Shown here one piece after another: positions 56,283 to 63,596 of a DNA stretch of 64,000 nt. Source of the stretch: Hyphomicrobiales bacterium (GTDB taxonomy: Bacteria; Pseudomonadota; Alphaproteobacteria; Rhizobiales; Beijerinckiaceae). Below the pieces are notes generated by a model. It ran no database searches. It was not told the DNA's origin and worked only from the letters and a program-made list of their open reading frames with translations. Where the stretch lies: assembly GCA_003963405.1 (NCBI GenBank), contig RXIY01000022.1:62001-126000 (forward strand), in the 5' to 3' direction. The first letter of the stretch is position 1. Each line of letters opens with the position of its first letter. Both the position numbers and the translations under genes were made by a program.

Positions 56283-56531
56283 CTAGCTCTCCTTGCAATG
56301 ATCCCCGTGGCGCGACGTTCCAGTCCCTGCCGGCTTCTTCCAGCGAGACCTCTGCGAGCGCCCGCGCGACCATTGCACAGCCACTGTCATAAGTCCAAGC
56401 TCGTACAATGGGAATTCCGCAGCCAGTCCGGTTGCTCCGCAGGCCGCTGTGGACGCCGAAGGAAGACTGTCCTAGTTTCAGCCGCGTCGCCGCCTGATCG
56501 CGTCACCCTCCTTTTCGCCCGAGAAACAGTC

Positions 56532-57704
56532 ATGAAGCCAAAGCGATTTCTCGCGAGTCCACAAGCTGTGTGGCTGGGCCTGGGAGGGCTGGCGGTCGCC
56601 GCCCTCGTCGCCTTCAGGGTCGTCGCGGGCGCGCAGGATGGCGGGGCGGCCACGTCGCCGCCGCCGCCGCCCAGCGTCACGGTGGCGCATCCGCTTGCCG
56701 AGACGGTTCCGCGCTGGGACGAATTCACCGGACGATTCGTCGCCGTGCAGCGCGTGGAGGTGCGTCCGCGCGTCTCGGGCGCCGTGGAGAAGATCCATTT
56801 CGCCGACGGGCAGATCGTGAAGGCCGGCGATCTTCTCTTCACCATCGACCCGCGCCCCTATCAGATTGCGGTCGACAGCGCCCGCGCAGAGGTCGCGCGC
56901 ATGCAGGCGCAGACCACCATGCTGTCCAGGGACGCCGCCCGCGGGGAGTCGCTCGTCGGCGGCGGCACGATCACGCGGCGCGACATGGATCAGCGGCGCG
57001 GCGGCTCGGATTCCGCCCGCGCCCAGCTTCTGGGCGCCGAGGCGTCGCTGCGCAACGCCGAGCTCAATCTGGAATGGACGCAGGTGCGGGCGCCGATCGC
57101 CGGCCGCGTGTCCGACCGGCGCATCGACACCGGCAATCTGGTGCAGGCGGGCGCAACGCTGCTTACGACCATCGTCACGCTCGACCCGATCTATTTCGAG
57201 TTCGACGTGTCGGAATCCGATTACCTGCATTATGCCCGCAGCGGCGCGGGGCATCAGAAGGCGGGGCAGACGCCGGCCTTCGTGCGGCTCGCCGACGAGA
57301 GCGACTGGAGGCGCAAGGGAACGATCGACTTCCTCGACAATCAGCTCAATGTCCATTCGGGCACGATCCGCGCCCGCGCCGTCCTCGCCAACAAGGATCT
57401 CTTCCTGACGCCCGGCGCCTTCGGCCGCGTGCGCCTTAATGGAGGCGACGCGTCGGCCCTGCTCATTCCCGACGCGGCCGTCTCCTCCGACCAGACGAGC
57501 AAGGTCGTGATGACCGTGACGCCGGATCGCAAGGTCGCCGCCAGGCCGGTCGCGCTCGGTCCGCTGCACAAGGGCCTGCGCGTCGTGCTCTCCGGCCTCG
57601 ACCGCGACGATCTCGTCATCACCGCCGGACTCGCCAATCCCATGGTGCGTCCGGGCGCCGCCGTCGCGCCGGTCGAAGCCGCGATTGCTCCTGCGGGAAA
57701 CTAG
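56532..57704 (+). CDS. RND efflux system periplasmic adaptor (membrane fusion protein)
   Basis: Product of 390 residues from ATG 56532 (MKPKRFLASPQAVWLG). After a membrane anchor and a Pro-rich linker come the barrel-sandwich hybrid (VEVRPRVSGAVEKIHFADG, then IVKAGDLLFTIDPRPY), a helical hairpin and the beta-barrel (LNLEWTQVRAPIAGRVSDR, GNLVQAGATLLTTI). It links the inner-membrane pump (next gene, 7 bp on) to an outer-membrane channel, which is not encoded nearby. Confidence 0.93.
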   Translation: MKPKRFLASPQAVWLGLGGLAVAALVAFRVVAGAQDGGAATSPPPPPSVTVAHPLAETVPRWDEFTGRFVAVQRVEVRPRVSGAVEKIHFADGQIVKAGDLLFTIDPRPYQIAVDSARAEVARMQAQTTMLSRDAARGESLVGGGTITRRDMDQRRGGSDSARAQLLGAEASLRNAELNLEWTQVRAPIAGRVSDRRIDTGNLVQAGATLLTTIVTLDPIYFEFDVSESDYLHYARSGAGHQKAGQTPAFVRLADESDWRRKGTIDFLDNQLNVHSGTIRARAVLANKDLFLTPGAFGRVRLNGGDASALLIPDAAVSSDQTSKVVMTVTPDRKVAARPVALGPLHKGLRVVLSGLDRDDLVITAGLANPMVRPGAAVAPVEAAIAPAGN

Positions 57705-57711
57705 ACGACCC

Positions 57712-60700
57712 ATGCGCTTTCCGCATTTCTTCATCGAGCGGCCGATCTTCGCCGCCGTCCTGTCGATGCTGCTCACCATCGCCGGCCTCATCGCCGCGCG
57801 GACGCTGCCCGTGTCGGAATATCCCGACATCGCGCCGCCGACGGTGATGATCACCGCGACCTATCCCGGCGCCTCGGCGGAGGTCATCGCGCAGACGGTC
57901 GCCTCTCCGATCGAGCAGGAGGTCAATGGCGTCGACGACATGCTCTACATCGCCTCGCAATCGACGGGCGACGGCCTGCTCACGATCAATGTCGTGTTCA
58001 AGACGGGCGTCAACATCGATCTGGCGCAGGTGCTGGTGCAAAATCGCGTGGCGATCGCGACGCCGCGCCTGCCGGAAGAGGTGCAGCGTTTCGGCGTCGT
58101 GGTGAAGAAGGCCTCGCCCGATCTCATGATGGTCGTGCATCTGCGCTCGCCCGACGGCTCGCGCACGCAGCAGTATATTTCCAACTATGCGACGCTCTAT
58201 GTGCGCGACGTGCTGGCCCGCCTCGAGGGCGTGGGCGACGTGCGCGTCTTCGGCGCGCGCGATTATTCGATGCGCGTCTGGCTCGATCCCGACAAGATCG
58301 CCGCGCGCGGCATGACGGCGGGCGAAGTCGTCATGGCGCTGCGCGCGGCCAATCTTCAGGTGGCGGCCGGCGCGATCAACCAGCCGCCCGCGGCCTCCCC
58401 CGGCGCCTTTCAGCTTTCCGTGCGCACGCTCGGGCGCCTCTCCGAGCCCGCCCAGTTCTCCGACATCGTGCTGCGCTCGGACGCCGACGGTCAGGTGCGC
58501 CTGCGCGACGTGGCGCGCGTCGAGATCGGCGCGCAGGATTATACGGTCAACGCCTATCTCGACCGCGATCCGGCGACGGCCATCGCCATCTTCCAGAAGC
58601 CTGGCTCCAATGCGCTCGCCACCTCGGAGGCGGTCGAGGCGGCGATGGCGGAGGCGAAGAAGCAGTTCCCGGCGGGCATAGATTATTCGATCGTCTATAA
58701 CCCGACCGAGTTCATCCAGCAGTCGGTCGACCAGGTGGTGCGCACGCTCGGCGAGGCGATCATCCTCGTCGTTCTGGTGGTGATCCTGTTCCTGCAGACC
58801 TGGCGCGCCGCGATCATTCCCGTCGTCGCCATTCCGGTCTCGCTCATCGGCAGCTTCGCGGTGATGAAGCTCCTCGGCCTGACCTTCAACACGCTCTCGC
58901 TCTTCGGCCTCGTGCTCGCCATCGGCATCGTGGTCGACGACGCCATCGTCGTCGTCGAGAATGTCGAACGCTATCTCGATCACGGGCTCACGCCGAAGGA
59001 AGCCGCGCACAAGACGATGGACGAGGTCGGCGGCGCGCTGATCGCCATTGCGCTCGTGCTCTGCGCGGTCTTCGTGCCGGTCGCCTATATCACCGGGCTT
59101 CAGGGCGCCTTCTACAAGCAGTTCGCCATCACCATCGCTTCGGCGACGCTCATCTCCGCCTTCGTCTCGCTCACGCTCTCGCCGGCGCTCGCCGCCATTC
59201 TTCTGCATCCGAGAGGCGAGGAGAAAGAGCCGGAGGGGCGGCTTGCGGTTTTGCTCCACGCCTTCTTCGCGCGCTTCAATCTACTCTTCGAGCGCCTGTC
59301 CGATCGCTATGGGTCGATGACCGCGCGGCTCGTGCGCCTGGGGCTCGTTTCGCTCATCGTCTATGCGGGGCTGATCGGCGTGGCGCTGGAGCTTTTGCGG
59401 CGCACGCCCACGGGCCTCGTGCCGACGCTCGACCGCGGCTATCTCATCGCCGCCTTTCAATTGCCGCCGGGCGCGGCGCTCGATCGCACCGACGCGGTGA
59501 TGCGGCAGGCGACCGACATCATCCTCAAACGGCCGGGCGTCGAATCGAGCGTGGTGTTCACGGGCTTCGACGGCGCGACCTTCACCAATGCGCCCAATTC
59601 CGGCGTGATCTTCGTCACGCTGAAACCCTTCGCCGAGCGCCACCGGCAGGGGGTGACGGCGATCGGCGTCCGCGACGATCTGCGCGCGGCCCTGTCGCCG
59701 ATCAAGGAAGCCTTCGTCTTCGTGCTGGAGCCGCCGGCGGTGCCCGGCATCGGCACGGGCGGCGGCCTCAAGGGCTATGTGCAGGATCGCGGCGGCATGG
59801 GCCTTCCGGCGCTGGAGGCGGCGACATGGGGGCTCGCCGGCCCGGCCATGGGCGCGCCCGGCGTGGCTCAGGCCTTCACGCTCTTCAACACGCGCACGCC
59901 GCAGATCTTTGCCGACATCGACCGCACCAAGGCCGAGATGATCGGCGTGCCGATCTCGCGCGTCTTCGAGACCCTGTCGGTCTATCTCGGCTCAGTCTTC
60001 GTCAACGACTTCAACATTTTGGGCCGCACCTACCGCGTCATGGCTCAGGCCGACAATCCACACCGGCTGACGCTGCGCGACATTTCCGAACTCAAGACCC
60101 GCAGTGCGACCGGCGAGATGACGCCGCTCGGCGCCATCGCGACCTTCCGGGACACGACGGGCGCCTTCCGCGTGCCGCGGTACAATCTCTACCCCGCGGC
60201 GGAAGTGCAGGTGAACCTCCAGCACGGCGTCTCCTCGGGGCAGGGGATCGCGGTGATCGAAGGGCTCGCCAAACAGACGCTGCCGCGCGGATTCGGCTTC
60301 GAATGGACGGAGATCGCGCTGCAGGAGAAGCTTGCCGGCAATACGGCGATGCTCGCCTTCGGCCTTGCGGTCGTCTTCGTCTTTCTGCTGCTCGCGGCGC
60401 TCTACGAGAGCCTCGTGCTGCCGCTCGCCGTCATCCTCATCGTGCCCATGTGCGTGCTCGCCGCCATGGCCGGCGTCGCCCTGGAGGGGCTCGATCGGAA
60501 TATTCTCGTCGAGATCGGCCTGGTCGTGCTGATCGGCCTCGCCGCCAAGAACGCGATTCTCATCGTCGAATTCGCCCGTCAGGGCGAGGACGAGGGCAAG
60601 GACCGCTTCGCGGCGGCGATCGAGGCGGCGCGCACCCGGCTGCGGCCCATCCTCATGACCTCCCTCGCCTTCATTCTGGGCGTTCTGCCGCTCGTCGTCT

Positions 60701-60852
60701 CGCATGGCGCCGGCGCCGAAATGCGCCAGTCGCTCGGCGTCGCGGTGTTCAGCGGCATGATCGGCGTGACCCTGTTCGGGCTCGCCTTCACGCCGATCTT
60801 CTATGTGCTGTCGCGCGCGCTCTCCCTGCGGATGCGCGGGCGGGCGCGCTAG
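57712..60852 (+). CDS. RND efflux permease (HAE1/AcrB family)
   Basis: Product of 1046 residues from ATG 57712 (MRFPHFFIERPIFAAVLS). It is the proton-driven pump of a tripartite multidrug-type exporter. Proton relay residues are Asp409 and Asp410 (GIVVDDAIVVVENVER); the standard PFFIxRPIFA-type start and the C-terminal RPILMTSLAFILGVLPL are seen. Twelve membrane spans and two porter loops fit. No TolC-like gene or local repressor is present. Substrates are unknown. Confidence 0.96.
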   Translation: MRFPHFFIERPIFAAVLSMLLTIAGLIAARTLPVSEYPDIAPPTVMITATYPGASAEVIAQTVASPIEQEVNGVDDMLYIASQSTGDGLLTINVVFKTGVNIDLAQVLVQNRVAIATPRLPEEVQRFGVVVKKASPDLMMVVHLRSPDGSRTQQYISNYATLYVRDVLARLEGVGDVRVFGARDYSMRVWLDPDKIAARGMTAGEVVMALRAANLQVAAGAINQPPAASPGAFQLSVRTLGRLSEPAQFSDIVLRSDADGQVRLRDVARVEIGAQDYTVNAYLDRDPATAIAIFQKPGSNALATSEAVEAAMAEAKKQFPAGIDYSIVYNPTEFIQQSVDQVVRTLGEAIILVVLVVILFLQTWRAAIIPVVAIPVSLIGSFAVMKLLGLTFNTLSLFGLVLAIGIVVDDAIVVVENVERYLDHGLTPKEAAHKTMDEVGGALIAIALVLCAVFVPVAYITGLQGAFYKQFAITIASATLISAFVSLTLSPALAAILLHPRGEEKEPEGRLAVLLHAFFARFNLLFERLSDRYGSMTARLVRLGLVSLIVYAGLIGVALELLRRTPTGLVPTLDRGYLIAAFQLPPGAALDRTDAVMRQATDIILKRPGVESSVVFTGFDGATFTNAPNSGVIFVTLKPFAERHRQGVTAIGVRDDLRAALSPIKEAFVFVLEPPAVPGIGTGGGLKGYVQDRGGMGLPALEAATWGLAGPAMGAPGVAQAFTLFNTRTPQIFADIDRTKAEMIGVPISRVFETLSVYLGSVFVNDFNILGRTYRVMAQADNPHRLTLRDISELKTRSATGEMTPLGAIATFRDTTGAFRVPRYNLYPAAEVQVNLQHGVSSGQGIAVIEGLAKQTLPRGFGFEWTEIALQEKLAGNTAMLAFGLAVVFVFLLLAALYESLVLPLAVILIVPMCVLAAMAGVALEGLDRNILVEIGLVVLIGLAAKNAILIVEFARQGEDEGKDRFAAAIEAARTRLRPILMTSLAFILGVLPLVVSHGAGAEMRQSLGVAVFSGMIGVTLFGLAFTPIFYVLSRALSLRMRGRAR

Positions 60853-60931: not shown

Positions 60932-60966
60932 TACGCCGTCACTCAATTTATTTTGGAGGATGCGGC

Positions 60967-62304
60967 ATGACTGCCTTTGCTTCGGTTGATTACACGGCTG
61001 CGGAGGCGGCCACTCTGCGCGCCAAATGGGGCTGGATGGTCGCCTTCGGGGCGCTGCTCGCGCTCGCCGGCTTCGTGGCGCTCGGCAGCGTCGTCAGCGC
61101 GACGGTCGTCACGGTCTATGTTGTCGGCGTCGCGATGATCGCCTCCGGCATTGTCGAAATGGTTTACGCCATCGTCGTCCGGTCCTGGAAGAAGTTCTTC
61201 TTCTGGTCGCTCATCGGCCTCCTCTATTTCATCGGCGGCATAGAGGTCATCAACAATCCGATGCTCGCGGCCGGCTTCCTGACGCTGCTGCTGGGCGCGG
61301 GGCTCGTCGCCGCCGGGCTCATCCGCACCTTTCTGGCCTTCCAGCTGCCAAAGGAGGCGCCGCGGGGCTTCGTCGTCTTTTCCGGGATCGTCACCCTCCT
61401 GCTCGGCGGGGTCATCCTCGCCCATTGGCCGGTGTCGAGCCTCTGGGTGCTCGGCACGTTTCTGGGCGTCGATCTGATCTTCGCCGGCGCGAGCTGGATG
61501 GGATTTGGCCTGTCTCTCAAGCGCGCCGGCGATAGCGGCGCCGTGGGCGCGGTCGGCGGCGAGCGCGTCGCGGTCGATCCGCCGGTCGAGGGGTTCTCGC
61601 GGGATTTCGGGCGCAAGCTTTTCGCCGAATTCCTCGGCACCTTCTGGCTCGTCTTCGGCGGCGTCGGCAGCGCGCTGATCTCGGCGGGCTTTCCCCAGCT
61701 CGGCATCGGCTTCACCGGCGTTTCGCTCGCCTTCGGCCTCACCGTGCTGACCGGCGCCTATGCCTTCGGCCCCGTCTCGGGCGGCCATTTCAACCCCGCG
61801 GTGTCGCTCGGCCTCGCGACGGCCGGCCGCTTCCCCTGGAAGGAGCTCGGCCCCTACTGGATCGCTCAGCTCGTCGGCGCAACCTTCGCGGCGTTCGTGC
61901 TGCTCCAGATCATGAAGGGCAATATCGACTTCTCGCTCGCCAACGGCTTCGCCGCCAATGGCTATGAGGATCATTCGCCCGCAGGCTTCACCTGGCAGTC
62001 CGGCTTCCTCATCGAAACCGTGCTGACGGCCTTCTTCCTGCTCGTCATTCTCGGCGTGACCGAAGGCCGCGCGCCTGTCGGCTTCGCGCCGATCGCCATC
62101 GGCCTCGCTTTGACGCTGATCCATCTTGTCGATATTCCGGTCACCAACGCCTCGGTGAACCCGGCCCGTTCGACCAGCCAGGCGGTCTTCGTCGGCGGCT
62201 GGGCGCTGGAGCAGCTCTGGCTGTTCTGGGTGGCGCCGCTACTCGGCGGCGTCATCGGCGGCCTCATCCATCGCTTCGCGCTGGCCGACGAGGCCACGGG
62301 CTAA
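60967..62304 (+). CDS. HdeD-domain/aquaporin Z fusion membrane protein
   Basis: Product of 445 residues. Residues 18-185 form a six-span HdeD-type (DUF308) domain, with charged loops RSWKK and KRAGDSG. After a short polar linker (about 190-212), residues 213-440 form a full AqpZ-type channel. The two NPA boxes are at 277-279 (GHFNPAVS) and 398-400 (NASVNPARS). His386 and Arg401 of the selectivity filter are kept; the threonine near the second NPA of E. coli AqpZ is Ala395. In E. coli HdeD belongs with HdeA/HdeB and acid resistance, and two HdeA/B genes lie 5 kb away. A strong terminator follows. Confidence 0.9.
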
Positions 62305-62333
62305 AAGGCGATAGAGTCTTAACGATTGTCTCG

Positions 62334-62370
62334 CGGGTCCGGCCGTTGCGGCTGGACCCGTTTTTTTTTT
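62334..62370 (+). terminator. Strong rho-independent terminator after the fusion gene
   Basis: A 12-bp stem (62334-62345 with 62349-62360, one G-T pair), 3-nt loop, then ten T at 62361-62370. Confidence 0.92.
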
Positions 62371-63293: not shown

Positions 63294-63596
63294 TCAGTTG
63301 GCGCCGAAGCTCAGCGGAACCTGCCCCTGAATCACGACGGCCTTGTTGACCGCCTCGCCGCCCTTGGCCGTGTTGCCGATCGACTGGCTGACGTCCATCT
63401 TCTGCGCCAGCGCGGACTTGTCGCCGGCGTTGACCGGAAGCTGCACCTGGAGGCCGAGGAACTTGTTGGTCGCGACGCCGCCCTTGGCGGTATTGCCGAT
63501 CGACTGGCTGAGATTGGCCACCTGGCTGAGATCGATCGCGAAGGCGAAGGTCGTCGAAAGAGCGACGGCGGCCGAGGCGAGAAGCAGCTTTTTCAT
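63294..63596 (-). CDS. Small secreted two-repeat protein
   Basis: Product of 100 residues with a signal peptide (1-20, MKKLLLASAAVALSTTFAFA). The mature part has two copies of SQSIGNTAKGG-x-A-x-NK at 30-45 and 70-85, forty residues apart, near-identical also at the DNA level. The rest is Val/Leu/Asn-rich. This resembles fibre- or matrix-type subunits built from repeats, but I cannot name a family. Its start lies 320 bp from the divergent gene at 63916, and the curlin-like gene follows on the same strand after about 115 bp. Confidence 0.72.
   Translation of the reverse strand: MKKLLLASAAVALSTTFAFAIDLSQVANLSQSIGNTAKGGVATNKFLGLQVQLPVNAGDKSALAQKMDVSQSIGNTAKGGEAVNKAVVIQGQVPLSFGAN

Follow-up and report, generated by a model that had tools for sequence, protein, structure and literature searches.

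Proteins of the HdeD type and aquaporins are encoded by separate genes elsewhere. The question raised by the locus described here is whether one open reading frame joining the two, at positions 60967–62304 of a 64 000-nucleotide stretch of contig RXIY01000022.1 (assembly GCA_003963405.1; family Beijerinckiaceae), is a natural gene and, if so, how it arose and what its product might do. The whole stretch is called the window below, and the gene is called the hdeD-aqpZ fusion. We find that it is a genuine, conserved, lineage-specific membrane fusion. As to its history, we favour, with somewhat better than even confidence, a single in-frame joining of hdeD and aqpZ in one Methylocystis clade, yielding a one-chain membrane protein.

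One frame, two membrane domains

The frame starts with ATG and has the architecture six-helix HdeD/DUF308, linker and complete AqpZ. The features of the gene are as follows:

60967–62304, plus strand: hdeD-aqpZ fusion gene, 445 amino acids in a single open frame, conserved over its whole length in 11 of the 39 genomes of the genus
60955–60959, plus strand: Shine-Dalgarno-like GGAGG, seven bases 5' of the ATG (in G163, the copy from the same species, the duplex energy is -9.3)
61018–61521, plus strand: HdeD/DUF308 domain, residues 18–185, from profile matches, with six predicted transmembrane helices
61525–61605, plus strand: linker, residues 187–213 (to 215 counting up to RKL), variable, with low model confidence at 192–207
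61603–62271, plus strand: AqpZ/MIP domain, residues 213–435, from Pfam and NCBIfam
61792–61800, plus strand: first NPA box, residues 276–278
62158–62166, plus strand: second NPA box, residues 398–400; Ala395 replaces Thr183 of E. coli AqpZ, and Arg401 is retained
62333–62361, plus strand: terminator-like hairpin of 13 pairs, followed by a T run

The open frame, Pfam and NCBIfam agree with the preliminary description of this DNA, in which one frame carried a six-span HdeD-type domain and a full aquaporin with both NPA boxes and the His/Arg filter. The linker is longer than the 25 residues given there, measuring 27–29 residues (from 187 to 213–215). In the whole protein, Pfam gave only DUF308, MIP and a match to DUF7470 below its cut-off, and no enzyme domain.

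The label 'HdeD-type' is right for the N-terminal half. DUF308 scores 50.6 bits (cut-off 25) over two stretches, of which 27–92 is the best, and NCBIfam does not show orthology to E. coli HdeD, its HdeD equivalog PRK10209 matching residues 16–186 with 52.5 bits against the 189 required. Identity to unfused relatives reaches 58%. The full-length structure model was built on an alignment (A2, from which locus L027 was excluded) that misplaced the final helix of the unfused HdeDs, and the HdeD half was therefore remodelled alone; the resulting model contains six long helices within residues 21–189, at a mean predicted local distance difference test score of 88.8.

The C-terminal half matches MIP at residues 213–435 (E 1.4e-47) and passes the NCBIfam aquaporin Z equivalog with 346.1 bits (cut-off 256); over aligned residues it is 62–67% identical to the 11 AqpZ entries listed. 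Its filter positions are F256, H386, A395 and R401, which we take to correspond to F43, H174, T183 and R189 of E. coli AqpZ, so that the exact E. coli filter F-H-T-R is not matched because of A395. AQP4 and AQP0 have this same F-H-A-R combination. The preliminary description had singled out the Thr-to-Ala change as one that might alter selectivity, but it cannot be linked to the fusion: Ala occupies the position equivalent to 183 in 11 of the 12 fusion copies, 15 of 18 unfused AqpZ rows of the genus have it as well, and Thr stands there in all eight outgroup rows kept (six of 14 outgroup loci, and the fragment G164, were dropped because the start motif was unmatched). Water conduction, as in other bacteria, is the most likely activity of the AqpZ half, given that the canonical features are present and that many AqpZs of the genus have Ala at this position. 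In another genus of the family (G1304, contig C5, 2178601–2179296), an AqpZ match covering residues 214–445 is 81% identical to the AqpZ half of the window, which exceeds the identity of the other genera listed; a transfer is possible.

Distribution and descent

The fusion is present in 11 of the 39 Methylocystis genomes searched, in 12 copies. The same species is represented by another assembly, G163, whose gene is 100% identical to that of the window (genome G000), and nine further genomes of the genus carry it at 77–90% identity: G150 has two copies (90 and 81%), and those of G114, G154, G017, G179, G166, G153, G152 and G161 are 77–86% identical. The matches in G114 and G017 each report one internal stop; as neither frame is interrupted within the fusion, this stop is most likely where the gene itself ends. 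The copies in G150 lie on contig C2 at 161031–162359 (L075, 90%) and on contig C1 at 3761794–3763137 (L076, 81%); an ATG is found in the linker of L076 only, and the contig carrying L075, 233 kbp long, may be a plasmid. Free AqpZ and the fusion are mutually exclusive among the 39 genomes: no carrier has a free-AqpZ match, and the 18 genomes with free AqpZ lack the fusion. The fused gene is the only aquaporin found in the carrier genomes.

Whereas the genus was searched as a whole, the family, order, class and phylum were searched as mutually overlapping samples. Full-length matches were found only in G000, G114 and G017 among the matches listed for 149 genomes of the family (E <= 0.001), only in the same 11 genomes among 397 of the family (E <= 1e-115), only in G000 and G017 among 397 genomes of 141 genera of the order (E <= 1e-60), only in G000 among 385 of the class (E <= 1e-85), and only in G000 and G017 among 398 of the phylum (E <= 1e-85). 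No fusion was found outside Methylocystis in these samples, at E cut-offs strict enough that a distant independent fusion, or one in reverse order (MIP–DUF308), could escape. The scan of genome contigs returned eight loci. Twelve junction-crossing loci in other genomes, a part of all such matches, comprised five of the HdeD type only and seven of the MIP type only, with no fusion or adjacent pair among them, and in none of 530 matching plasmid records did one place cover 80% of the query. The fusion is confined to one Methylocystis lineage in all samples searched, as expected of the lineage invention envisaged in the preliminary description.

In a codon tree of rpoB that covers 32 of the 39 genomes (G162 and six genomes without usable rpoB being omitted), the 11 carriers form one clade with support 100/100. 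The joining would most likely have happened once, in an ancestor of this clade: one fusion event followed by vertical descent explains the species tree and is allowed by the tree of the HdeD half, in which the fusions group within a set supported at 100/99 that includes seven unfused HdeDs of the genus.

Several points weigh against this account. The grouping of the fusions in the HdeD-half tree has support of just 65/87. The MIP-half tree splits them: G161 branches first, the unfused sequences of G089 and G149 and a 13-row unfused clade stand among the fusions, and monophyly of the fusions is rejected (p-AU 0.018), a conflict that calls either for some lines having subsequently lost the HdeD half or for recombination. 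Moreover, hdeD and aqpZ are not neighbours among the family matches listed, the closest pair on one contig lying about 96 kbp apart (G027), and thus no operon ancestor is seen; likewise, a tblastn search with the HdeD half (E <= 1e-3) gave no match in 13 loci around unfused AqpZs of the genus. Finally, a coupling of the two halves cannot be argued from homology, because the biochemical function of HdeD has no assignment: according to PMC3924187 none could be made for an HdeD-family protein, and PMC4602095 places HdeD under unknown function.

A de-fusion in G089 was also considered. Its leader agrees with the G161 linker at 20 of 36 bases, more than the 16 that mark the 99th percentile when gaps are disallowed in the null. 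With gaps allowed, 20 of 300 shuffles scored as high, as did 82 of 235 control windows around other GGAG..ATG sites, and the candidate was dropped.

Linker, selection and alternative readings

Under a single joining, the leader of aqpZ would have bridged the two genes, connecting aqpZ in frame with the 3' terminus of an hdeD-type gene. In most rows compared, the start of the linker coincides within a few residues with the C end of unfused HdeDs. Four of the 12 copies (G017, G150b, G154 and G161) have an in-frame linker ATG with a Shine-Dalgarno-like site (GGGAGC, AGGAGC or AGGAGG). The anti-Shine-Dalgarno energies of these ATGs are -6.5 to -10.3, those of 12 unfused aqpZ starts (of 13 loci, G173 being dropped) are -6.4 to -9.3, and the four rank in the strongest 1.6–10.3% of 438 start-like codons. 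In the same four linkers 68 of 118 codons have G or C at the third position (GC3); across the 11 distinct copies, GC3 is 0.81 in one half of the protein and 0.83 in the other. The ATG with its site and the low GC3 are as expected if the linker was formerly the untranslated leader of aqpZ, and the linker ATG is probably a relic of the start of that gene. Because a direct homology test between linkers and the leaders of unfused genes was not significant, the leader origin is something that we only infer. In the G161 linker (L082) there is a short repeat, QDGFNLQDGF, which looks like a duplication of the stretch that follows the former aqpZ start.

These starts bear on a reading that we judge unlikely, namely that two products are made, the full fusion and a free AqpZ from the linker start, which would assemble into mixed tetramers. 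The four ATGs, with energies like those of unfused aqpZ starts and with lowered linker GC3, speak in its favour. However, the other eight copies, including those of the window and G163, have no linker ATG, and energy is weak proof, some in-frame codons that are impossible as AqpZ starts scoring alike (for example TTG, -10.3, in G163; ATG, -9.5, in G017). The GC3 effect is small in G154 (linker 0.69, halves 0.76 and 0.79), and the linkers of G152 and G153, without ATG, are likewise low (0.67 and 0.70). In the window's copy, the linker of which has a GC3 of 26 out of 29, the sole GTG is weak (-3.5, the energy being taken from the identical G163), and two separate proteins from a linker start, an alternative named in the preliminary description, are ruled out there.

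Both halves are maintained by purifying selection. Over 55 pairs of distinct copies, the median ratio of non-synonymous to synonymous substitution rates (dN/dS) is 0.164 for the HdeD half (14–186) and 0.083 for the AqpZ half (214–440), and it is 0.424 for the linker (39 usable pairs). The roughly twofold higher value of the HdeD half would suit a neutral joining, in which this half is a passenger and the AqpZ half alone matters, and the MIP tree is consistent with G089 and others having lost it. Yet a dN/dS of 0.16 is still strong constraint, a broken HdeD half occurs in none of the 12 copies, and all 11 members of the rpoB clade have kept it; we therefore doubt this explanation. An assembly or sequencing artefact at the junction, for which nothing speaks beyond HdeD and AqpZ being separate genes elsewhere, is ruled out for practical purposes by the identical second assembly and by nine genomes with differing junction sequences, and the frameshift or assembly error that the preliminary description allowed for can be set aside.

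Surroundings, predicted product and known systems

The window contains four terminator-like sites (mean of shuffles 2.2), of which the hairpin 3' of the fusion gene is the strongest. Just 5' of the gene (56298–60852, plus strand) are genes for an HlyD-type adaptor and an AcrB-type pump, the frames of which overlap by 20 bases, and the frame at 63294–63596 (minus strand) encodes a small protein whose N end resembles a signal; it carries the motif SQSIGNTAKGG twice and has no Pfam match. The neighbourhood is partly conserved, an amine-oxidase-type gene lying within a few kbp of several fusion copies: at L082 (4437–6008) Pfam identifies it as coding for an FAD enzyme of this type, and L065, L077 and L079 contain frames that resemble it at the N end.

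Translated as a single chain, the fusion would be a 12-helix inner-membrane protein composed of an HdeD domain (six helices, with both ends cytoplasmic), a short cytoplasmic linker and an ordinary water-type AqpZ. E. coli AqpZ is a tetramer according to the title of entry 2abm, and since AqpZ forms tetramers, each assembly would bear up to four HdeD domains, at 1:1 stoichiometry. The HdeD half is most likely a membrane-embedded partner with a stress-related role, co-expressed and co-located with the channel. For E. coli genes, PMC9769608 and PMC8407380 report a role in acid, heat or chlorine resistance. Methylocystis heyeri is an acidophile (PMC6639610); should G089, which lacks the fusion, be this species, the fusion would not simply follow acid habitat. 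A term search of the text of a paper on methanotroph acid adaptation (PMC6119699) returned no mention of HdeD, aquaporin or AqpZ. The tie between water flow and acid stress suggested in the preliminary description is hypothetical. We consider it improbable that the fusion is a stress-coupled aquaporin, its channel gated or positioned by the HdeD half when acid or oxidants act on the cell, and that in copies with an internal start the cell adjusts how many subunits of mixed tetramers bear HdeD and how many are free.

HdeD proteins are widespread, and the fusion of one to the only aquaporin found in its carriers, which are environmental methanotrophs, is a concrete lead on the role of HdeD: the domain probably acts in the same membrane patch, 1:1, on something affected when water, or a small solute resembling it, flows through. 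How two genes can merge into one membrane protein is also suggested by the copies that retain the probable former aqpZ start and those that lack it.

The fusion resembles the HdeD/DUF308 family in its DUF308 match above the cut-off and its six helices, and differs in that its C end runs on into an aquaporin. It shares with AqpZ (E. coli 1rc2, Agrobacterium 3llq) the NPA boxes, the F, H and R of the filter and a score beyond the NCBIfam AqpZ cut-off, but is extended N-terminally by about 213 residues, in which six helices are predicted, and has Ala for Thr183. No HdeD/DUF308–aquaporin fusion is reported in the literature searched, which left out most subscription journals. Other natural aquaporin fusions have been published. 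As described in PMC9775063, the aquaglyceroporin–arsenate reductase fusions of Mycobacterium and Salinispora (Wu et al. 2010) are likewise natural one-chain joinings of an aquaporin-family channel with another domain, in which a small arsenate reductase is C-terminal to the aquaglyceroporin. In contrast, the Methylocystis fusion, in which no enzyme domain that would make the permeant was found, has a second polytopic membrane domain placed N-terminal to its water-type channel.
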